From Lachnospiraceae bacterium (lineage in GTDB: Bacteria > Bacillota > Clostridia > Lachnospirales > Lachnospiraceae): DNA of 64,000 nucleotides. The notes below the pieces were generated by a model. That model had not been told where the DNA came from and ran no database searches. It was given only the letters and a program-made list of their open reading frames with translations. Made by a program: the position numbers and the translations under genes. Of the stretch, positions 35,304 through 48,817 are shown piece after piece. Location: NCBI GenBank assembly GCA_017469935.1, contig JAFUFL010000026.1, positions 1 to 64,000 on the forward strand. The letters run 5' to 3'. Position 1 is the first letter of the stretch, and each line of letters opens with the position of its first letter.

Positions 35304-35330
35304 TTAGCACTCATCGCTGATGAGTGCTAA
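35304..35330 (+). promoter_or_regulatory. CIRCE element (HrcA operator), perfect
   Basis: TTAGCACTC, nine bases, GAGTGCTAA: an exact consensus CIRCE inverted repeat 113 bases before htpG. HrcA binds it to repress chaperone genes until heat stress. It is followed by six T, so the same hairpin could also terminate upstream transcription. Confidence 0.96.
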
Positions 35331-35442: not shown

Positions 35443-37572
35443 ATGGCAGAAAAAGGATCTTTGTCCATCAACAGCGAGAATATGTTCCCCATTATCAAGA
35501 AATGGCTGTACAGCGATCACGATATTTTCTACAGAGAACTGATCTCCAACGGCTGCGATGCCATCACCAAGCTGGGAAAGCTGGATATGATGGGCGCGTT
35601 TGCGCTGCCGGAAGATTACAAGGCGCGGATCGACATCGAAGTCAGCCCCACCGACAAGACCATCAAGGTGTCGGACAACGGTATCGGAATGACCGCGGAC
35701 GAGGTCAGGGAGTACATCAACAACATCGCGTTTTCCGGCGCGGAAGCTTTCCTGGCAAAATATAAAGACAAGGCGAGCAGTGACCAGATCATCGGCCACT
35801 TCGGACTGGGATTCTACAGCGCGTTCATGGTCGCTGACATGGTGACCATCGATACGCTCTCTTATCAGGAAGGCGCGGAGCCCGTTCACTGGGAGTGCGA
35901 CGGCAGCAGCACGTACTCCATGGACAAGGGGAGCCGTCAGTCTTTTGGCACGACCATCACACTGCACCTGACCGAAGACTGCGTCGAGTTCGCGAACTAT
36001 TATAAGGCGCAGGAAGTGATCGAGAAGTACTGCTCCTTCATGCCCACGGAAATCTATCTCTCCGAGAAGGACACGAGCGCGACCGAGACGATCGCCGAGT
36101 CCGAGAGAAGGCCCGACGACGTGGTGATCGAGGTCATCGAGCCCGAGAAGAAGGAGGACGACAAGGGGCCCGCAGAGAAGAGGCTCAAGATCAGAAGACG
36201 CCCGGTCCTGCTCAACAACACCCATCCGCTCTGGGGCAAGAATCCCAGCGAGTGCACGGAAGAAGAGTACAAGGAATTCTACAGAAACGTCTTCAGAGAT
36301 TACAAGGAGCCCCTGTTCTGGATCCACCTCAACATGGACTATCCCTACAATCTCAAGGGCATCCTCTACTTCCCCAAGCTGAACCTGGAGTACGAGTCCG
36401 CCGAAGGCGTGATCAAGCTCTACAACAACCAGGTCTTCATCGCGGACAACATCAAGGAAGTCATTCCCGAGTACCTGATGCTGCTCAAGGGCGTCATCGA
36501 CTGCCCCGACCTGCCGCTGAACGTCTCCAGAAGCGCGCTGCAGAACGACGGCTTTGCTAAAAAGATCAGCGACTATATCACCAAGAAGGTGGCGGACAAG
36601 CTGGCCGGCATGTGCAAGACCGACAAGGAAAACTACGAGAAGTACTGGGATGACATTTCTCCTTTCATCAAGTACGGGTGCCTCAGAGACGACAAGTTCT
36701 GCGCCAGAATGACCGACTACATCCTGTTCAAGGATCTGGACGGAAATTATCTGACCACCCCCGAGGCCCTTAAGGTCAACAAGGTGGATCCCGAGGCGGA
36801 AGAAGAAGAGAAGAGCGCACAGACCGCTACCGATGAGAACGGCGAGAAGGTAGAGGCGGAAGTTGTCGGCGACGGCAAGAAGGCCGGCGACGAGGCCGAC
36901 AAGGAAGAGGAGAAGGTCGAAGATCACACGATCTACTATGTGACGGATCCCCAGCAGCAGAGCCAGTACATCCGCATGTTCCGCGACAACAAGATGCAGG
37001 CCTTTATCCTGGATCACACCATCGACCAGCCCTTCATCCAGCAGCTGGAAGCCAAGAATGAGGGACTTCACTTCGCAAGGATCGACGCGGACGTCCAGGA
37101 GGCGCTCAAGACCCGCACGGGCAAGAAAGCGGCGGAGGCCCTCAAGGAGTCTTCCGAAAAGCTGGAGAAGATGATCCGCAAGGAGGTGGGGAACGACAAG
37201 CTGAGCGTGAAGCTCGAGAATCTCAGAGACAAGAAGACAGCTTCCATGCTCACGGTCAACGAGCAGAGCCGCAGGATGGCGGATATGATGAAGATGTACG
37301 CCGCTTCCGGCATGTCCATGGGACTGGACGAATTTGCCAAGGAAGGACAGACTCTGATTCTCAACGCCAAGCACCCGCTGGTCAAGTACATCATGGAGCA
37401 CGAAGAGGATAAGCTGACCGGTCTCATCTGCCGGCAGCTCTACGACCTGGCACAGATCCAGAACGCACCTCTCTCCCCCGAAGATATGGCCGGTTTTGTC
37501 GCCAGATCCAATGAGATCATGATGATGCTCATGAAGGAGGAGAAGGAAGAGAAGGAGAAGAAAGAAGAATAA
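35443..37572 (+). CDS. htpG: HtpG (Hsp90-family chaperone), long divergent form
   Basis: A 709-aa cytosolic ATP-dependent chaperone. The GHKL ATP site is complete: helix RELISNGCDAITKL (most members have SNASDA), DNGIGMT and the lid IGHFGLGFYSAFMVA. The catalytic-loop arginine region PLNVSRSALQND is present. The protein is about 80 residues longer than E. coli HtpG, owing to an acidic Glu/Lys-rich insert at about residues 445-490, and it ends in a Lys/Glu tail EEKEEKEKKEE. Ribosome site AAAGGAGAG precedes the ATG. Regulated by the CIRCE element. Three unassigned genes lie downstream. Confidence 0.95.
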   Translation: MAEKGSLSINSENMFPIIKKWLYSDHDIFYRELISNGCDAITKLGKLDMMGAFALPEDYKARIDIEVSPTDKTIKVSDNGIGMTADEVREYINNIAFSGAEAFLAKYKDKASSDQIIGHFGLGFYSAFMVADMVTIDTLSYQEGAEPVHWECDGSSTYSMDKGSRQSFGTTITLHLTEDCVEFANYYKAQEVIEKYCSFMPTEIYLSEKDTSATETIAESERRPDDVVIEVIEPEKKEDDKGPAEKRLKIRRRPVLLNNTHPLWGKNPSECTEEEYKEFYRNVFRDYKEPLFWIHLNMDYPYNLKGILYFPKLNLEYESAEGVIKLYNNQVFIADNIKEVIPEYLMLLKGVIDCPDLPLNVSRSALQNDGFAKKISDYITKKVADKLAGMCKTDKENYEKYWDDISPFIKYGCLRDDKFCARMTDYILFKDLDGNYLTTPEALKVNKVDPEAEEEEKSAQTATDENGEKVEAEVVGDGKKAGDEADKEEEKVEDHTIYYVTDPQQQSQYIRMFRDNKMQAFILDHTIDQPFIQQLEAKNEGLHFARIDADVQEALKTRTGKKAAEALKESSEKLEKMIRKEVGNDKLSVKLENLRDKKTASMLTVNEQSRRMADMMKMYAASGMSMGLDEFAKEGQTLILNAKHPLVKYIMEHEEDKLTGLICRQLYDLAQIQNAPLSPEDMAGFVARSNEIMMMLMKEEKEEKEKKEE

Positions 37573-37589: not shown

Positions 37590-37667
37590 GATGCACACGC
37601 GTGCGGAAAGGAAGGTGCTGCCAAAGGGCAGCCCGCACGCGGCGCGGCGGCTCGCTCTGCGAGCCTT
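37590..37667 (+). repeat. GC-rich hairpin repeat, tandem unit 1
   Basis: 78-base unit starting GATGCACACGCGTGCGG. Outer arms CGCGTGCGG (37598-37606) and CCGCACGCG (37633-37641) enclose CTGCC/GGCAG, and a second hairpin GGCTCGC/GCGAGCC ends the unit. Nearly identical to unit 2 (two differences seen). Confidence 0.85.
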
Positions 37668-37745
37668 GATGCACACGCGTGCGGAAAGGAAGATGCTGCC
37701 AAAGGGCAGCCCGCACGCGGCGCGGCGGCTCGCTCTGCGAGCCTT
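37668..37745 (+). repeat. GC-rich hairpin repeat, tandem unit 2
   Basis: Second 78-base unit directly abutting unit 1, between htpG and the next gene's terminator and promoter. Related copies are at 48755-48817 and 3119-3186. Confidence 0.85.
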
Positions 37746-37767
37746 GAATACAGTTTTTATCATCGAA

Positions 37768-37800
37768 CGAGGCGGCATGGGAATGTGCCGCCTCGTTTTT
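37768..37800 (+). terminator. Terminator downstream of htpG
   Basis: 11-bp stem CGAGGCGGCAT/GTGCCGCCTCG (one G-U), loop GGGAAT, then TTTTT. It lies immediately upstream of the next gene's extended -10. Confidence 0.88.
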
Positions 37801-37854: not shown

Positions 37855-40800
37855 ATGGGATATCGGGAAGTTTATACGGCCGCCAATATGGCGGGGGAAG
37901 AATACAATATTTCGGACAGAGGACTGAGCATCACACCGGAGAAGATCAGTATCAGCGTCAGGCCGGGAGGATCGGCGGAAGGACAGTTCGTGGTGGCGGG
38001 GCCGCCCGGGACTGCCGTGACCGGATTTCTGACTTCGGACAGCTTTCACATGCAGCTGCGAAGGGACAGCTTCGCGGAGAACCCGGACAGGATCAGCTGG
38101 CGGTTCGACGCGGGCGCCCTGGGAGAAGGAGAGGTCTGTGAGGGCACGATCGGGATCGTCTCGGGCCGGGGCGAGTACAAGCTGCCTTTCCGGGCCGAAG
38201 TGGTCACGCCTCAGATCGCAGGAAGGGAGCTTCAGGAGATCCCGCATCCGAACGCCGCCGCGGAGCGCTTTCTAAGGCTGGCCGATGAGGACTGGGGCAG
38301 CGCGGTGAGGCTCTTTTACAGGAAAGAGTTCGCGCAGTCTCTGCTCACGGACGAAGAGAAAATGCTGTACAGAGGCCTGGCCCGGTATCCTGGCAATGAG
38401 CAGAACGTGGAGGAGTTTTTGATCGCGGCCTGCGGAAAGGACCCGGTCGAATTCCTGGTCGACACCAAGGAGGTCAGGAGGGAGATCCTCGAGATCGGAA
38501 GCGGCTTCGGAAGCGCCGAGCCTACGGACTGCCGCATAACGATCCGCAGGCGCGGATGGGGCTTCTGCCGGCTGAAAGTCACCATGGCGGGTTCTTTTCT
38601 GTCTCCGGTTTCCGCCGTCCTGGGCGGAGAAGATTTCATCGGGGACAGCTGTACGTTCACTTACCGGGTGGAAAAGCACAGGCTCCATCCGGGCCGGAAT
38701 TTCGGCAGGATCTATCTCAGCTCCCCTTATCAGGAGATCCGGATTCCCGTGGAGATCGTTTACAGAAGAAGGAGCGACGGGAAGGCCAGGCAGGAGCGGG
38801 AGAGCCGGAGGGCTCTCATCGAGATCATGCGCCACTATGAGCGCCTGCACGTGGGCTGGGCCAGGGAAGCCCAGGGCATGGAGAGCGGGATCGACAACGG
38901 AGAGTGGCTCAGGCAGGCGGACGAACTGGTCAAAAGATTGTCTTACCTGAGGCGGGACAGCACCCTTCCAAGGCTCTACGCGGCCCAGCTTCTTCTCATG
39001 GAGAACCGGATCCACCAGGCCATCATGGAGCTCGAGAGCGTCCGCAGAAAGCTGGCGGGCGTCGCCTCCGGAGAGGTGCTGGAGATGGGATACAGCCAGT
39101 ACCCGGGGGAGTCCGATATCGAGTACTGCTACAGGCAGTTCCTGACGGCTCTGGCTTACCACGACGCGGACGTGATCACGCCCCGCGTCGGCAGAATCCT
39201 GAGAGAGCGCTACAGAAGAAATCCGGCGGACTGGAGAATCGCCTGGATGATGATGCAGCTGCTGCCGGAATATGCGCCGGGACTCCCCGCCAGGTGGAAT
39301 TTCCTCAAGAAGCAGTACACGAACGGGGCCAGAAGTCCGATCCTGTATATGGAAGCGTGGGATATGATCTACGCGGACCCCTCTTACCTGAATCTTCAGG
39401 AGGACCGGAGAACGGGAAGGTACGGAGGGGATGCTTTCGAGAGACAGGTCCTGGTCTATGCGATGAAACGGGGGCTGCTCGATCCCGGGACCATGGAGAA
39501 AGTGCTGGAGCGCACGGAGAGAAGGAGAGAGTTTTCCCAGGCGCTTTACTATATTTTGACCCGGGCCTATTCGCTGGAGAGGATGCGCCCGCTGCAGATC
39601 CCGATCCTCAGGAACCTGTGCACGCTGCTGATCAGGGGGAACCGGACCGGGGCGGACTGCTTTGTCTGGTATTCGAGGGCCGTGGAGAAGGGCCTGAACC
39701 TGGTGCGCCTGTCCGAGTGCTTCCTGCAGTCGATGCCGGAGGATTACAGCGGCGTGATCCCGGACAGCGTGATGCGCACGAGCTACAGAGGCAGTATGCT
39801 CTCGAACGGGAGCCGCGCCTATTTCTATCTGTATCTGTACAGGAACAGGAGCAAATACGCGGATGTCTTCGAGCAGTGCGCGGAGGATATACGCACTTTC
39901 CTGGAGCTGCAGATTTCCGAGCACCGCATGACGGAGAATCTTGCGGAGCTCTATACGGTTGCGCTCAGGGACGAGTCGATCCGGCCTTCCAATGCGGGAG
40001 ACCTGACCAAGCTGTCCTATCTGTCGCACCTGCGCACGACGCATTTGTATATGAAGAAAGCGGTGACGGTCTATGCGCAGAGCAGTAAGGAGCGCGTCTA
40101 TCCCATGGAAGGCGGGAACTGCATCCTGCCCATCTACGGGGACGACAACAGGATCTTCCTCGAGGACGCGCAGCACAACCGCTATACGGCCAGCGTCCCT
40201 TACACCTGCGACAGGATGATGGAGCCCGTGGGGACCCCCGATCAGGTCTCGCTCCAGGAGATGGCGGACCTGCCGTTTGCCATGGAGATCTCGGGCGTGA
40301 CGGACGAATCCTTCGAGGTCACGGACGAGACGCTCCGGTACTGCGAGATCCTGGTGAGATCGGCCTCCGTCGCGCCTTCTTATCGGGTCAGGCTCAAACT
40401 CCGGCTCATGGACTACTATGAGAGATCGGGCGATATGGAAAAACTCCGGGCCATGGCGGGGACACTGGAGGCGGGAGAGCTGCGCCCGGAGGACTGCGTC
40501 CGGACGATCAAACTCATGAACCGCTGCGGGATGTACGACGAGGCGGTGGAGTGGATCACGCTGTGCGGGATCGAGAAGTGCCCGGCCGATGTGCTGTCGG
40601 ACACGGCGCTGGGAGCCGCTGCGGGAGACCGACAGGACAGCGAGAGGTGTCAAAAGGCGGGCAGGATCGCCTGGGCCGCTTTCGAGCGGGGAGACAATCG
40701 GCGCCGGATCCTCGAGCTGATCCTGGAATGGTATGACGGCCTGTCGGAAGACCTGCAGCGGGTGAGAGACGCGCTGCTGGAGGTGACGGACGAGGAGGCC

Positions 40801-41664
40801 GAAGAGGACCTGGCGGTGACCGTGGCGGAGGACAGGCTTTTGGCGCAGACGCTGTTCAGCGGAGAGATGCTGCGCGGACAGGAAGACCTTCTTCTGAGAC
40901 AGTACGGAAGAGGAGAGAAGCACCGGGAGCTGGCGGGCGCCGGCATCGCGCAGTACTGCCACTATGTCTTCGCCGACTGGAGGCAGATGGATCCCCGGAT
41001 CATGCGCCTCATCGCGCAGGCGGACGGGGAGGGAAATTCCATGCCCCCGATCTGCCGGCTGGCCTATCTCAAGACCCTCGTCGACAGGGCGGACCGAGCC
41101 GGCCAATCGGAGCCGCTTACGGAGGAAGAGGCGGCGACGGCGGAGAGATTTTTGCTCTCGCTCCTTAAAGAAGAGATCGTATTTCCCTTTTACAGGCAGT
41201 TTACCGGCACAGGCCCGGCGCTTCGCCTCTATGACCGGGAGACGATGATCGAGTACCACAATCCCGCCGGCGTGCGCGGCACCCGGGGGCACGTAGTGAT
41301 CCACTGCTCCCTGGACCGGGGCGGCAGGCAGGAACCCTTTATGGCCAGAGAAATGAAGGAAATGGTCCGGGGCTTCTATGTCAGCTCTTTCTTCCTGTTC
41401 TACGGGGAGCAGGTGCACTATTTTATCACCGATGATCCCGAGGAGAAGAACATCGTCGAGAGCGGGACCATCGGACAGGACGCCCGGATCGACCCGGCGC
41501 AGGATGACCGTTTCGCGCAGATCGACGCCATTTCGCGCGCCGCGGCGCACAGAGAACGGGAGAAGGCCGCCGCGCTGATCAGTGAGTACATGAAGAAAGA
41601 GTATCTCACCGACACGCTGTTTGGAACTGAGGAGGACAGTGATGCTATTTACCAGATTACCTGA
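37855..41664 (+). CDS. Giant 1269-aa unassigned protein (DUF5717-like)
   Basis: No assigned function. Residues about 10-125 look like an all-beta immunoglobulin-like domain (LSITPEKISISVRPGG, then LPFRAEVVTPQI). A second beta domain lies at about 200-310. The middle, residues 310-750 and 840-1080, is rich in amphipathic helices spaced like TPR or HEAT repeats. The C-terminal 150 residues contain beta strands again. There is no signal peptide or membrane helix, so it should be cytosolic. I recall such proteins as DUF5717 in Lachnospiraceae, always next to a DUF5716-like partner; this is recall, not a search. It overlaps the next gene by 23 bases. A large helical scaffold bearing beta modules suggests a protein-binding role. 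Confidence 0.6.
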   Translation: MGYREVYTAANMAGEEYNISDRGLSITPEKISISVRPGGSAEGQFVVAGPPGTAVTGFLTSDSFHMQLRRDSFAENPDRISWRFDAGALGEGEVCEGTIGIVSGRGEYKLPFRAEVVTPQIAGRELQEIPHPNAAAERFLRLADEDWGSAVRLFYRKEFAQSLLTDEEKMLYRGLARYPGNEQNVEEFLIAACGKDPVEFLVDTKEVRREILEIGSGFGSAEPTDCRITIRRRGWGFCRLKVTMAGSFLSPVSAVLGGEDFIGDSCTFTYRVEKHRLHPGRNFGRIYLSSPYQEIRIPVEIVYRRRSDGKARQERESRRALIEIMRHYERLHVGWAREAQGMESGIDNGEWLRQADELVKRLSYLRRDSTLPRLYAAQLLLMENRIHQAIMELESVRRKLAGVASGEVLEMGYSQYPGESDIEYCYRQFLTALAYHDADVITPRVGRILRERYRRNPADWRIAWMMMQLLPEYAPGLPARWNFLKKQYTNGARSPILYMEAWDMIYADPSYLNLQEDRRTGRYGGDAFERQVLVYAMKRGLLDPGTMEKVLERTERRREFSQALYYILTRAYSLERMRPLQIPILRNLCTLLIRGNRTGADCFVWYSRAVEKGLNLVRLSECFLQSMPEDYSGVIPDSVMRTSYRGSMLSNGSRAYFYLYLYRNRSKYADVFEQCAEDIRTFLELQISEHRMTENLAELYTVALRDESIRPSNAGDLTKLSYLSHLRTTHLYMKKAVTVYAQSSKERVYPMEGGNCILPIYGDDNRIFLEDAQHNRYTASVPYTCDRMMEPVGTPDQVSLQEMADLPFAMEISGVTDESFEVTDETLRYCEILVRSASVAPSYRVRLKLRLMDYYERSGDMEKLRAMAGTLEAGELRPEDCVRTIKLMNRCGMYDEAVEWITLCGIEKCPADVLSDTALGAAAGDRQDSERCQKAGRIAWAAFERGDNRRRILELILEWYDGLSEDLQRVRDALLEVTDEEAEEDLAVTVAEDRLLAQTLFSGEMLRGQEDLLLRQYGRGEKHRELAGAGIAQYCHYVFADWRQMDPRIMRLIAQADGEGNSMPPICRLAYLKTLVDRADRAGQSEPLTEEEAATAERFLLSLLKEEIVFPFYRQFTGTGPALRLYDRETMIEYHNPAGVRGTRGHVVIHCSLDRGGRQEPFMAREMKEMVRGFYVSSFFLFYGEQVHYFITDDPEEKNIVESGTIGQDARIDPAQDDRFAQIDAISRAAAHREREKAAALISEYMKKEYLTDTLFGTEEDSDAIYQIT

Positions 41665-42907
41665 GAAAAAATACCTTCTGGGGGTCGATATCGGGGAAAC
41701 ATTCTGTCAGATCTCCTATCTGAACACGCGCCGGCTCACGGCGGGAATGGATCCGCACACCTTTTCGACGGTGGCGCGGGGGGAGGCGTTCAACATTCCC
41801 CAGGCGGCCTTTGCGGACAGTGCGACCGGAAACCGGTTCTACGGAAAGGAAGCACTCGAGAAGGCGGCAGAGGCCGGGAGAGAGCCCGTGACGCACCTGT
41901 TTGCGGCGGCCCGGCAGGAGACGGGAGAGGGCGGAAACCTGCAGATCCTGATCGGATACCTGCAGTACTGCTTCAGCCTTCTCTCGGCAGAGGTGACGGC
42001 GGAGGAGATCGAGGCCCTGACCTTTACGGTGGATGTCTGCGACCGGAAAAGCGTGGAGATCCTCAGAGCGGCGGCCGACCGCCTCTTTCCGGGACTGGAC
42101 AAGGTGGCCTATGAAGAGCACCTGAAATCCTTCTATCATTATGTGCTCACGCAGGATGAGGAACAGAGGCGGCAGTCCGTGCTGCTCCTGGACGGGTGGT
42201 CGGAAGAGGAGCTTGTGCTCTACACGCTCTCATACAACAAAAAGACGAGGCCCATCGTGTGCTTTCCCGAGGAACTGCGCCTCAAGATCCCTGCAGACGC
42301 GGGCGCCGCGCAGAAGGACGAGATCCTCTGCAGCGCGGTGAGAGGGCTGATGCGGGAAAAGGAGTATTCGGCCGCCTACCTCACGGGGGAAGCGCTGGGC
42401 GGAGGCTGGATGAAGGAGTCCCTGAACCTGATCTGCAGGGGCCGGAGAGCCTTCCAGGGAGATACGCTGTACAGTAAAGGAGCCGCCGACAGCACCATGG
42501 CCGCCTGCGGCCTCTCCTCCAAAGCGGATAAGTACTTCTATCTCAGCAAGGACGCCCTTCGCTGCAACATCGGCATGGAGTGCCTGAGGAAGGGAAGAGC
42601 GGTCTACCAGCCCCTGCTGGACGCGGGAGCGGAGTGGTACGACGCGGCGGCGCAGATCGATATTTTGCTGGAGGACGGGGATGAGATCGTGCTGCGGGAG
42701 ACCTCGGTGGACCGGGGAAATGAGCGCGAGATCGCGGTGAAGCTGGAGAACATGCCCAAGAGGCCGAGAGCTACCACGAGACTGCGGATCCGGCTGCACA
42801 TGATCGCCGCGGACCGGATGCGGCTGGAAGCGGAGGACCTGGGATTCGGAGAGATCTTCCCCGCGACGGGGATGAAGTGGGAACAGGAGATAGTGATCAA
42901 TGGGTAA
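41642..42907 (+). CDS. Hsp70/actin-fold-like protein (DUF5716-like)
   Basis: A 421-aa protein that starts KKYLLGVDIGETFCQISYL, the phosphate-1 strand of the Hsp70/actin/hexokinase ATPase fold (GxDxGxT type). Later segments resemble the second subdomain (QSVLLLDGWSEEELVLYTL, LTGEALGGGWMKESL). The ATP loops are degenerate compared with DnaK and no substrate-binding domain is recognisable; the C-terminal ~130 residues form a separate beta-rich part. The ATG at 41642 follows GGAGGACAGT. It overlaps both neighbours, so all three genes are translated as a unit. I recall these as DUF5716. Likely an Hsp70-like ATPase or pseudo-ATPase working with the 1269-aa protein. Confidence 0.6.
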   Translation: MLFTRLPEKKYLLGVDIGETFCQISYLNTRRLTAGMDPHTFSTVARGEAFNIPQAAFADSATGNRFYGKEALEKAAEAGREPVTHLFAAARQETGEGGNLQILIGYLQYCFSLLSAEVTAEEIEALTFTVDVCDRKSVEILRAAADRLFPGLDKVAYEEHLKSFYHYVLTQDEEQRRQSVLLLDGWSEEELVLYTLSYNKKTRPIVCFPEELRLKIPADAGAAQKDEILCSAVRGLMREKEYSAAYLTGEALGGGWMKESLNLICRGRRAFQGDTLYSKGAADSTMAACGLSSKADKYFYLSKDALRCNIGMECLRKGRAVYQPLLDAGAEWYDAAAQIDILLEDGDEIVLRETSVDRGNEREIAVKLENMPKRPRATTRLRIRLHMIAADRMRLEAEDLGFGEIFPATGMKWEQEIVING

Positions 42908-43739
42908 GAGCATTCTGACAACAGGGAGGATCGCGGAGAAGCCCTACCGGCTCTCGATCATCGACCGGAACGTCTATACGGTGGAAGAGCTGTGCTATTC
43001 GATCGCCCAGTGCGCCTCTTTCCTGGACGAGGATTTTATGGACCACGAGCTCCTTGTCTGGCTCGAGCAGTCCTGCGGGCTGGCCGAACTGGCGGCACAG
43101 CTCCGGTCCCTCTTGCGGGGGCGGTGCGCGGTCGAGGACTTTGCCTCGGTCATCCTGCTCTATGTGGGGTACCAGAGCACGGCCGAAATAGAGAGGATCC
43201 GCGCCTCGATCTCTTCCGGCAAGGGAATGGAGCCCTTTCAGAGGCGGCTCCGCGAGGCGAAGTTCACGGCCTCCAGAGGCCACATCACGCAGGCGATCGA
43301 GCTCATGGACGGGATCGAGGCGGAACTGCCCGAGCTGGAGCGGGAAATGCGAGGAAGGATCTGGGCGGAGAAAGGGCTTCTCTACGCGCAGGGCATGCGC
43401 TACGCGGAGGCGGCCGACTGCTACGGCAGGGCCTGGAAGCTGTCCAGGAGCAGGCAGAACTGCCTGAAATACCTGGCGGCGCTGCGATTTGCGCTTCCCG
43501 ATGAGGACTATAAGGACTATATCGGGGAGCACCCCGAGATGGAGGAGGTCGCCCGCGAACTGGAGAGCACGGCAGCGGCGGCAGAGAAGGAGTGGAGAAA
43601 CGGCAGTGCCGGCAGGCAGGTCAAGCGCCTGCAGGGGTATCTTAGAAGCGGACAGGCCAAGTCCTTCGACAACTACGCGCAGCTCAGGATCCGGGAGCTG
43701 CGGGACGCCTTCCGGGCGGACAATGCGCCTTCCTTCTGA
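42900..43739 (+). CDS. Helical unassigned protein (third gene of the Hsp70-like cluster)
   Basis: A 279-aa soluble protein with no recognised domain. Residues about 30-60 hold an acidic hydrophobic segment (EELCYSIAQCASFLDEDFM); residues 110-190 look like two or three TPR-like helix pairs (ITQAIELMDGIEAELPEL, LYAQGMRYAEAADCYGRA). A basic C-terminus (RQVKRLQGYLRSGQAKSF) follows. No signal peptide. The ATG overlaps the preceding stop by eight bases. Its fixed place after the Hsp70-like protein suggests a co-chaperone-like or adaptor role, which is inference. Confidence 0.5.
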   Translation: MGKSILTTGRIAEKPYRLSIIDRNVYTVEELCYSIAQCASFLDEDFMDHELLVWLEQSCGLAELAAQLRSLLRGRCAVEDFASVILLYVGYQSTAEIERIRASISSGKGMEPFQRRLREAKFTASRGHITQAIELMDGIEAELPELEREMRGRIWAEKGLLYAQGMRYAEAADCYGRAWKLSRSRQNCLKYLAALRFALPDEDYKDYIGEHPEMEEVARELESTAAAAEKEWRNGSAGRQVKRLQGYLRSGQAKSFDNYAQLRIRELRDAFRADNAPSF

Positions 43740-43755
43740 AAATTGGTGATTTTAG

Positions 43756-43783
43756 TTGAAAATGAAAGAATTATTGTTATACT
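43756..43783 (+). promoter_or_regulatory. purB promoter
   Basis: -35 TTGAAA (43756-43761), 16-base spacer, -10 TATACT (43778-43783), about 41 bases before the purB ATG. Confidence 0.75.
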
Positions 43784-43824
43784 GTATTACGTCTTTATAA
43801 CCTGATCGAGAAAGGAATTTGGCA

Positions 43825-45258
43825 ATGGCAAATGACAGATATGTGAGCCCGCTCTCCGAGCGATACGCAAGCAAGGAGATGCAGTATATTTTCTCCCCCG
43901 ACATGAAGTTCAGGACCTGGAGAAAGCTTTGGATCGCGCTGGCGGAGACGGAAGCGGAACTGGGGCTTCCCATCACGCAGGAGCAGATCGCGGAACTCAA
44001 GGCCCACGCAGACGACATCAATTATGAAGAAGCCAAGGCGAGAGAAAAAGTGGTGCGTCATGATGTCATGAGCCATGTTTATGCCTATGGCCTGCAGTGC
44101 CCCGGCGCAAAGGGAATCATTCACCTGGGAGCGACCAGCTGCTACGTGGGTGACAACACGGACGTCATCATCATGAGAGAAGCGCTGCGCCTGGTCCGCC
44201 GCAAGCTGATCAACGTCCTTGCGGAGCTGGCAAAGTTCGCGGACGAATACAAGAGCCTGCCCACACTGGGCTTTACCCATTTCCAGCCCGCGCAGCCCAC
44301 TACAGTCGGCAAGAGAGCGACGCTGTGGATGCAGGAATTCTATCTGGCCCTGGGCGAGGTGGAACACGTGCTCGGAAACCTTAAACTCCTGGGAAGCAAG
44401 GGCACTACCGGAACGCAGGCCTCCTTCCTGGAACTGTTCGACGGCGACCTGGAGAAGGTGGACAAGCTGGATCCCATGATCGCGAAGAAGATGGGCTTTG
44501 ACGCGTGCGTACCGGTTTCCGGACAGACTTATCCCAGACTGGTGGACACGATCGTGCTGAACGCCCTTGGAATCGTCGCGTCCGCGGCCATGAAGCTGGG
44601 AACGGATATCCGCCTTCTGCAGCACCTCAAGGAAGTGGAAGAGCCCTTCGAGAAGAGCCAGATCGGCTCCAGCGCCATGGCTTACAAGAGAAATCCCATG
44701 CGCAGCGAGAGAATCTGTTCCTTATCCAGATATGTGATGATCGACGTCTTGAATCCCGCCGTTACGGCAGGGACGCAGTGGTTTGAGAGGACTCTGGACG
44801 ATTCCGCCAATAAGAGGCTGTCCGTTCCGGAAGGCTTTCTCGCCATCGACGGCGTGCTCGACCTGTGCCTGAACGTGACCGACGGCCTCAAGGTCTATCC
44901 CAAGGTCATCGAGAAGCGCCTGATGTCCGAGCTGCCCTTTATGGCCACCGAGAATATCATGATGGACGCCGTCAAGGCCGGCGGAGACAGGCAGGAGCTG
45001 CATGAGAGGATCCGCGAGCTCTCCATGGAAGCCGGAAGAAGGGTCAAGGAGGAAGGCAAGGACAACAACCTGCTGGAGCTGATCGCGGCTGATCCCGCTT
45101 TCCACTTAAGCCTTGATGAACTGAAGAAATCCATGGATCCCTCGCGCTATATCGGCTGCGCGCCCCATCAGGTGGAGAAATTCCTCATAGAGGTGATCGC
45201 CCCCGTGCTGGAAGCCAATAAGGATCTTCTGGGGGAGAAGGCTGAGATAAACGTTTGA
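43825..45258 (+). CDS. purB: Adenylosuccinate lyase
   Basis: A 477-aa fumarase/aspartase-superfamily enzyme that cleaves SAICAR and adenylosuccinate, releasing fumarate, in purine synthesis. The flexible catalytic loop and signature SSAMAYKRNPMRSE is intact, as are HDVMSHVYAYG and GATSCYVGDNTD in the first domain and TLGFTHFQPAQPTTVG in the second. Start ATG 43825 with AAAGGAATT upstream; a TTG two codons earlier is less likely. A promoter precedes it and purA follows 112 bases later after a hairpin repeat, so AMP synthesis genes are adjacent but probably separately tuned. Confidence 0.97.
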   Translation: MANDRYVSPLSERYASKEMQYIFSPDMKFRTWRKLWIALAETEAELGLPITQEQIAELKAHADDINYEEAKAREKVVRHDVMSHVYAYGLQCPGAKGIIHLGATSCYVGDNTDVIIMREALRLVRRKLINVLAELAKFADEYKSLPTLGFTHFQPAQPTTVGKRATLWMQEFYLALGEVEHVLGNLKLLGSKGTTGTQASFLELFDGDLEKVDKLDPMIAKKMGFDACVPVSGQTYPRLVDTIVLNALGIVASAAMKLGTDIRLLQHLKEVEEPFEKSQIGSSAMAYKRNPMRSERICSLSRYVMIDVLNPAVTAGTQWFERTLDDSANKRLSVPEGFLAIDGVLDLCLNVTDGLKVYPKVIEKRLMSELPFMATENIMMDAVKAGGDRQELHERIRELSMEAGRRVKEEGKDNNLLELIAADPAFHLSLDELKKSMDPSRYIGCAPHQVEKFLIEVIAPVLEANKDLLGEKAEINV

Positions 45259-48725: not shown

Positions 48726-48754
48726 CACAGGGGGCAAGCCCCGCTGAGTTATTT

Positions 48755-48817
48755 GATGCACACGCGTGCGGAAAGGAAATACAGCCGCACGCGGCGCGCA
48801 GGCTCGCACGGCGAGCC
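48755..48817 (+). repeat. GC-rich hairpin repeat, short copy
   Basis: Starts GATGCACACGCGTGCGG as at 37590; outer arms CGCGTGCGG (48763-48771) and CCGCACGCG (48785-48793) pair and the 3' hairpin GGCTCGC/GGCGAGCC is kept, but the inner CTGCC/GGCAG hairpin is missing. It lies 30 bases after rplT. Confidence 0.8.

Follow-up and report, generated by a model that had tools for sequence, protein, structure and literature searches.

Three overlapping genes in a 64,000-nucleotide stretch of a Lachnospiraceae bacterium genome (contig JAFUFL010000026.1 of assembly GCA_017469935.1, positions 1 to 64,000; hereafter the window) encode a long DUF5717 protein (gene 1), a degenerate DUF5716 relative of the Hsp70 chaperones (gene 2), and a tetratricopeptide repeat (TPR)-type protein (gene 3). 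As judged by comparing sequences across the order, and with a probability that we put at roughly 60%, this trio descends by reduction from a chaperone operon with several Hsp70s. The basis of this comparison is homology, domains, gene order, the loss of catalytic residues and of subdomain IIB in gene 2, and the fusion of genes 2 and 3. What surprised us most is found beyond the window: a four-Hsp70 operon of which the trio looks like the ATPase-free remainder.

The open reading frame coordinates bear out an earlier sequence-only reading of the window, in which genes 1 and 2 overlap by 23 bases and genes 2 and 3 by 8 bases, all on the plus strand (Table 1). An alternative upstream TTG start would extend gene 2 to 428 amino acids (aa); the ATG start has AGGAGG before it. 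In Pfam, gene 1 matched DUF5717_N (PF18984, 4e-186) and DUF5717 (PF18983, 3.7e-50) and gene 2 matched DUF5716_C (PF18980, 1.4e-81), all above the curated cut-offs; the title lines of these families read "family of unknown function". The predicted structure of gene 1 contains Ig-like beta-sandwich regions at residues 25-116 and 199-305, an alpha-solenoid at 308-728, and then the C-terminal DUF5717 part (the model extends to residue 922), in agreement with the Ig-plus-repeat scaffold proposed earlier. The TPR-like character assigned to gene 3 also appears to hold: TPR_2 is matched at E≤0.01 by 28 of the 42 aligned proteins, and the family profile matches TPR structures. The window protein is not one of these 28; its Pfam TPR match is below the cut-off, and no Pfam family scores above. 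The N-terminal part of gene 3 carries a conserved ...YTVEELCYS... motif. The strand antisense to gene 1 also has a 1092-aa open frame (38272-41550, minus strand), which is probably a by-product of GC-rich codon use.

Profile searches and a structure model indicate that gene 2 is a member of the Hsp70 superfamily by fold and descent, with an actin-like nucleotide-binding domain (NBD) followed by the beta subdomain of the substrate-binding domain (SBD-beta) and no lid. To our knowledge, SBD-beta is confined to Hsp70s. When 46 gene-2 relatives were combined into a profile, it gave 13 PDB matches at E≤1e-3, all 13 to Hsp70s (best 6.6e-10, to DnaK chains over the NBD), and its SBD-beta match was weak but collinear. 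The profile of the corresponding DUF5716 proteins of the full operons (termed B; see below) aligned with DnaK (4rtf) through NBD and SBD-beta in one stretch (22-499, 2.2e-22), its best PDB match being BiP (1.7e-22, over 135-500). In the full operon at locus L104, B is above the cut-offs of both HSP70 (PF00012, 1.4e-17) and DUF5716_C (1.5e-26), as is the adjacent Hsp70-C (7.4e-63 and 7.5e-10, respectively). When the AlphaFold model of gene 2 (13 alignment rows, pLDDT 77.8, pTM 0.62) was searched with Foldseek, DnaK was found at ranks 1-10, with lidless constructs at ranks 2 and 3, and Ssz1 of the ribosome-associated complex (RAC) at rank 11 (E 1.2e-12). A median of 23 residues follows the last SBD-beta motif of gene 2 vs 159 in the host DnaK, so that the SBD-alpha lid is absent. 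The sequence-only reading had recognized an Hsp70-like protein with degenerate loops from the phosphate-1 motif GVDIGETF (residues 14-21), and both the motif and the kinship stood. Its statement that gene 2 has no substrate domain did not: SBD-beta is present, and the helical lid is what is missing.

We then compared catalytic residues, in E. coli DnaK numbering, in 43 reduced-form gene-2 proteins, namely those of the window, 40 other genera, L116, and L115 (from a genome of family f129). T11 was kept in 1, K70 in none, E171 in none, and T199 in 1 of the 43. The glycines of the GGGT loop were kept in only 3, 4, and 1 proteins, with varied replacements, and the glycine of the IGAA motif was kept in all 43. 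In B of the full operons most of these residues are already lost (kept: T11, 3/18; K70, 0/18; E171, 3/18; T199, 0/18), and every catalytic residue checked was retained in the other three Hsp70s of these operons (A, 14/14; C, 17/17; D, 15/15). The segment between the phosphate-2 and adenosine motifs measures 71 aa (59-78) across all 43 reduced-form proteins, compared with a median of 142 aa (115-152) in B and 143 aa in the host DnaK. Residues 235-305 of DnaK, corresponding to subdomain IIB, are absent in more than 70% of the 43 at nearly every site. The part of PMC10825016 dealing with GrpE binding places the contacts on DnaK at a helix (255-272, crystal structure) and a hairpin (276-302, newer model), and the missing region spans both. 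By these alignments, gene 2 fails as an active Hsp70, the catalytic K70, E171, and T199, the GGGT loop, and the lid all being lost, and it is without the NBD lobe that GrpE grips.

DUF5716_C matches in 67 genomes of the order from outside the window's family led to the larger operon, whose members span 14 families of the order besides the window's own; the trio had been called specific to the lineage, and this claim fell. At L104, the operon encodes, in order, a DUF5717 protein (1326 aa), Hsp70-A (559 aa), a GrpE-domain protein termed GrpEx (644 aa, C-terminal GrpE, 3e-13), B (523 aa), Hsp70-C (551 aa), Hsp70-D (692 aa, C-terminal VWA, 1.9e-10), and a TPR protein (387 aa). The complete seven-part operon was present in fixed order in 13 of 20 loci (L098, L099, L101-L108, L110, L112, and L113). 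This count includes three loci with small extra frames between the parts (L098, L101, and L102), one in which D and TPR each occupy two frames and GrpEx is short (L110), and two in which the TPR gene was automatically labelled DUF5717 but bears the gene-3 match (L101 and L113). Among the remaining seven loci, L109 has frames that were not recognised where B and TPR would lie, L100, L111, L114, and L117 are partial or dispersed, and L115 and L116 hold the reduced trio. The order of the trio is collinear with that of the full operon minus A, GrpEx, C, and D. Each of A, B, C, and D forms a group separate from E. coli DnaK, HscA, HscC, and YegD in a reference tree, which was used solely for this separateness because of its long branches, and the four L104 proteins are below the NCBIfam cut-offs for DnaK and HscA. 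Hsp70-D (e.g., L104:6495-8573, minus strand) is an Hsp70-VWA fusion whose tail reads LDNIAxxI(A/T)EL(I/V)RL in all eight sequences printed; the VWA metal motif D-x-S-x-S was not found in the last 230 residues of any of 15 Hsp70-D proteins.

GrpEx, a protein of about 565-645 aa at full length whose GrpE domain is C-terminal, was detected in 77 of 196 order genomes. Sixty-nine of these matches were at E below 1e-30 and spread over 14 families, and none at this threshold fell in the window's family. Among 120 genomes of that family, each from a different genus, no match of GrpEx length was found; eight genomes gave weak hits (5.2e-8 to 1.2e-4), which look like ordinary GrpE because all are to the GrpE end and lie in frames of 206-245 aa. 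In the non-family genomes, DUF5716 and GrpEx (E<1e-30) occurred together in 64, DUF5716 alone in 3, GrpEx alone in 5, and neither in 102 (p 1.5e-37, kinship not corrected for), so that both are missing from many families of the order. That other operon genes had moved elsewhere in the family's genomes was rejected; no individual searches for A, C, and D were made across the family, but the window's own genome has one strong Hsp70 gene (DnaK) and one marginal PF00012 match (21.5 vs a cut-off of 20.6 bits). The marginal match (G000:C79:6080-6394, E 6.9e-5) lies in a 643-aa frame apart from dnaK.

The direction of change was examined in a tree of gene 2 and B rooted on Hsp70-C, in which 22 of the 43 reduced-form rows were used. 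Gene 2 of the family forms one clade, and its sister is B of a full operon from another family (G420, f125; 99/100). Next outward are the B proteins of family f142 (92/77), where that of L109 sits on a very long branch; a further 14 B proteins from full operons lie outside. Since full operons occupy the successive outer branches, loss is the simpler reading. B of G420 retains subdomain IIB (139 aa), and the lobe thus probably went together with GrpEx or later. Loss of GrpEx and of the three intact Hsp70s from the locus would fall at the base of the window's family, with retention of the scaffold, the catalytically dead Hsp70, and the TPR protein. The wider statement is that the order has a further Hsp70 machine, consisting of four subfamilies of its own (including the pseudo-Hsp70 and the VWA one), a GrpE-type protein, a TPR protein, and a giant Ig-plus-solenoid scaffold in one operon, and that one family dropped the ATP-burning parts, the GrpE-type protein, and the GrpE-gripping lobe and kept an ATP-free core in nearly every genus; we give this statement even odds. 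It would mean that the dead member of an Hsp70 machine is able to do an important part of the machine's work.

Within the family, DUF5716_C was found in 117 of the 120 genomes with a single match per genome, and DUF5717_N was likewise found in 117, in some of them split into two pieces. The order gene 1-gene 2-gene 3 on the same strand was observed in all 40 other genera whose loci were fetched (about 15-20 kb each); at L063, gene 2 was overlooked by phmmer and was assigned by position and its DUF5716_C match. Genes 2 and 3 form a single open frame in 4 of the 40, where the gene-3 N-terminal motif comes after the end of the DUF5716 domain. The co-occurrence expected from the sequence-only reading is therefore found, and the cluster is not a chance arrangement. 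DUF5717_N was detected in 4 of 299 genomes of a phylum sample, all four from the window's family, and a DUF5717 profile from the full operons matched 11 of 291 genomes of a class sample, ten from the family and one weakly (E 3.6e-4, a 230-aa frame); other families of the order are thinly represented in both samples. A fourth gene, G4, follows gene 3 in 18 of 41 trio neighbourhoods and the TPR gene in full operons L107-L110. Its product has a hydrophobic membrane hairpin mid-protein (two predicted segments in 16 of the 18, one in 2), with arms that look helical by eye. A search of the window's own genome, made without a positive control, did not find G4. Two contigs stand apart from this distribution. 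At L115 (G576, family f129), a reduced trio occurs outside the family with a gene 2 that nests inside the Lachnospiraceae clade, and transfer or a mis-binned contig is indicated. L013 (CACXUA010000066.1), titled Bacteroidales, has a gene 2 that is 75% identical to that of the window and no gene 1 in 8 kb upstream; this contig is probably mis-binned or chimeric.

Several observations weigh against descent from the full operon or against an ATP-free chaperone. Among the 120 family genomes, G029 and G091 are without genes 1 and 2, and G020 (67% complete) has gene 2 only, with no gene 1 or gene 3 match. In G098, gene 1 lies at a contig end and gene 2 was not found. A search for gene 3 in these four genomes gave no match in G020, G091, and G098 and weak TPR hits only in G029. 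Gene 2 is found without an upstream gene 1 at L013, one of 14 close-relative loci. The fork joining f142 to the trio's side is less well supported (92/77), and the full operon is far from universal, as 102 of the 174 non-family order genomes have neither marker. Of the 43 gene-2 proteins, 40 keep D8 and 25 keep D194, so nucleotide may still bind, and the model of gene 2 reaches TM-scores of only about 0.45 against DnaK. Among the scanned operon proteins of L104, none had a recognisable J-domain.

The likely function of the trio is that of an ATP-independent, Ssz1-like chaperone or a holding or assembly platform. The three proteins would form one complex, with the long DUF5717 protein as its platform. 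The pseudo-Hsp70 may act as a fixed module, ATP-bound or empty, whose lidless SBD-beta would hold peptide with fast exchange in the manner of Ssz1. The TPR protein would serve as an adaptor linking the pseudo-Hsp70 to clients or to the scaffold, and the membrane hairpin of G4, in the 18 neighbourhoods that have it, could tether the complex. The identity of the client is the least certain part of this explanation. The own function of a pseudo-Hsp70, asked so far mainly for Ssz1 and Hsp110 in eukaryotes, becomes directly testable. The locus, which occurs both with its ATPases and exchange factor and without them, constitutes a natural experiment, and two Pfam families of unknown function, both near-universal in a large bacterial family, gain a first role that can be tested.

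Two other explanations retain a working or assisting Hsp70. The pseudo-Hsp70 could be a co-chaperone of the ordinary DnaK in the style of Ssz1 or Hsp110, docking on it and handing over clients or tuning exchange. Sections of PMC8476630 and PMC7083937 describe eukaryotic atypical Hsp70s with little or no ATP hydrolysis that pair with canonical Hsp70s; the full operon has three intact Hsp70s beside the dead one, and the host genome has one strong DnaK. However, no dnaK- or grpE-like family was seen by eye among the trio's neighbour families, no CIRCE (controlling inverted repeat of chaperone expression) precedes the trio, and the operon's own GrpE-type protein was not found in the 120 family genomes. 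We regard this explanation as unlikely. That gene 2 is still an active ATPase through other catalytic residues, which would make the trio an ordinary ATP-driven chaperone, appears improbable: the phosphate-1 D8 and the IGAA glycine persist (40/43 and 43/43), but K70 and E171 are lost from all 43 proteins and T199 from 42, the GGGT glycines are mostly gone, and so is IIB.

A conflict or defence role, akin to that of GAP1-N2 GTPase neighbourhoods with HSP70, GrpE, and FNIII/TPR proteins, was also considered. A like parts list is in print for these neighbourhoods (in the portion of PMC7159879 that treats them), and with PADLOC, Hsp70-C and Hsp70-D of L104 match the candidate PDC-M61B (8.7e-11 and 4.4e-7), while PrimPol and PDC-M71B are matched by the TPR protein of the same locus (about 4e-6). 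By contrast, the trio has no PADLOC match, is near-universal across the family's genomes, each with a single gene 2, and no GAP1, GTPase, or effector domain occurs among the scanned L104 proteins. Of the 196 order genomes, 20 contain GAP1-M (PF20014); in those that have cluster genes as well, it lies on another contig in all but G601. We consider such a role very improbable. In G601, the GAP1-M match (G601:C59:3776-5163) is about 0.55 kb from a DUF5716 match on the opposite strand and is the sole such neighbour seen. A phage or defence origin of the trio was rejected, there being no PHROGs or PADLOC match and no relative in two viral-contig scans. Gene 2 might instead be an actin-like protein of the FtsA, PilM, or MamK type, unrelated to Hsp70, in a cytoskeletal cluster. 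The actin-like core is common to both groups, and the fold search lists MamK at rank 41. This cytoskeletal reading is scarcely credible and is largely refuted by the Hsp70-only PDB profile matches (13/13 at E≤1e-3), the SBD-beta, and the DnaK fold matches. Reduction from a multi-Hsp70 operon thus remains our preferred reading of the trio.

Table 1. Features of the trio and its surroundings in the window
Feature	Position	Strand	Basis or remark
CIRCE, perfect, before htpG	35304-35330		
htpG (neighbour, outside the system)	35443..37572	+	Pfam
Terminator-like hairpin in the htpG/gene 1 gap	37765..37798	+	15-pair stem into T run, z -5.14; absent from consensus scan list
Gene 1, DUF5717 scaffold, 1269 aa	37855..41664	+	Open reading frame list and Pfam
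Gene 2, DUF5716 pseudo-Hsp70, 421 aa from ATG 41642	41642..42907	+	Open reading frame and Pfam
Phosphate-1 motif GVDIGETF of gene 2	41681..41704	+	Retains the D8 equivalent; E in place of T11
SBD-beta-like domain of gene 2, about residues 308-421	42563..42904	+	Profile and structure matches
Gene 3, TPR-type protein, 279 aa	42900..43739	+	Open reading frame; TPR matches of relatives
Promoter-like site between gene 3 and purB	43756-43783		
purB, adenylosuccinate lyase (neighbour, outside the system)	43819..45258	+	

The sequence-only reading had tied the trio to the neighbouring htpG. The perfect CIRCE before htpG and the position of htpG upstream of the trio in the window were confirmed, and the same position was seen in 9 of 14 close-relative loci. 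A conserved tie was not: htpG occurs in the fetched stretch of only 2 of the 40 other genera, adjoining in L064 and about 3.6 kb off in L055, and a strong terminator-like hairpin separates it from gene 1 in the window. We therefore rejected htpG as a partner. In 41 regions upstream of the trio, the best CIRCE match had at least 6 mismatches of 18 (htpG control, 0), and upstream of nine full operons it had at least 8 of 18; matches before gene 1 were not above those in shuffled sequence at either set of loci. CtsR boxes with up to 3 mismatches occurred at 3 of the 41 trio loci vs about 0.5 expected and at 1 of the 9 full operons vs 0.2, an excess not taken as evidence because sigma-A-like matches were also in excess and the shuffles preserve base composition only. 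Heat-shock control of the trio is thus not supported. On the other side of the trio, purB lies within the fetched stretch of 11 of the 40 genera. The gap between htpG and gene 1 holds a 78-nt GC-rich unit in tandem duplicate (37590-37745, 99%), and a partial related copy lies 11 kb downstream (48743-48817); the unit looks like an intergenic repeat element.

Among the open-licence papers listed by literature searches, none described the trio or the multi-Hsp70 operon, and the one paper found with DUF5716 or DUF5717 is on an unrelated subject. A term search of PMC11019930, on DnaK paralogs, found no mention of Lachnospiraceae, Clostridia, or gene clusters. With the Hsp70 kinship of gene 2, these results support the earlier idea of an uncharacterised chaperone-type system; as a whole, that observation was confirmed and its chaperone reading strengthened, while the htpG, substrate-domain, and lineage claims were not. 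A 2021 review sorts prokaryotic Hsp70s into DnaK, HscA, and HscC (PMC8215388), a scheme to which the present operon adds four Hsp70 subfamilies within one operon.

Among known systems, Ssz1 binds but does not hydrolyse ATP, has no lid, and has a complete SBD-beta, according to the account of it in PMC7083937. Gene 2 likewise consists of NBD and SBD-beta, is lidless, and is catalytically degenerate in sequence. It differs in being bacterial, in being without subdomain IIB, and in lying beside DUF5717 and TPR genes, and no J-protein partner or ribosome site was seen in the trio, so that Ssz1 offers a likeness of working, not membership or common descent of the complex. With the DnaK-GrpE system, the full operon shares intact Hsp70s, a GrpE-domain protein, and the Hsp70 fold, whereas A-D group apart from DnaK, GrpEx is much longer with GrpE at its C-terminus, and the operon has no recognised DnaJ. 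In print, the theme that comes nearest is that of the GAP1-N2 GTPase neighbourhoods, in their HSP70-GrpE subset. As reported by Kaur et al. 2020 (PMC7159879), these combine HSP70, GrpE, and an FNIII protein fused to DnaJ or TPR, and a subset has a second HSP70 without the peptide-binding domain. The likeness extends to HSP70, GrpE, an Ig/FNIII-like protein together with TPR, and a degenerate second HSP70. The full operon differs from them in that no GAP1 or GTPase is found among the scanned L104 proteins and in that it has four Hsp70s, a fixed gene order, and a core that is present in the window's family.

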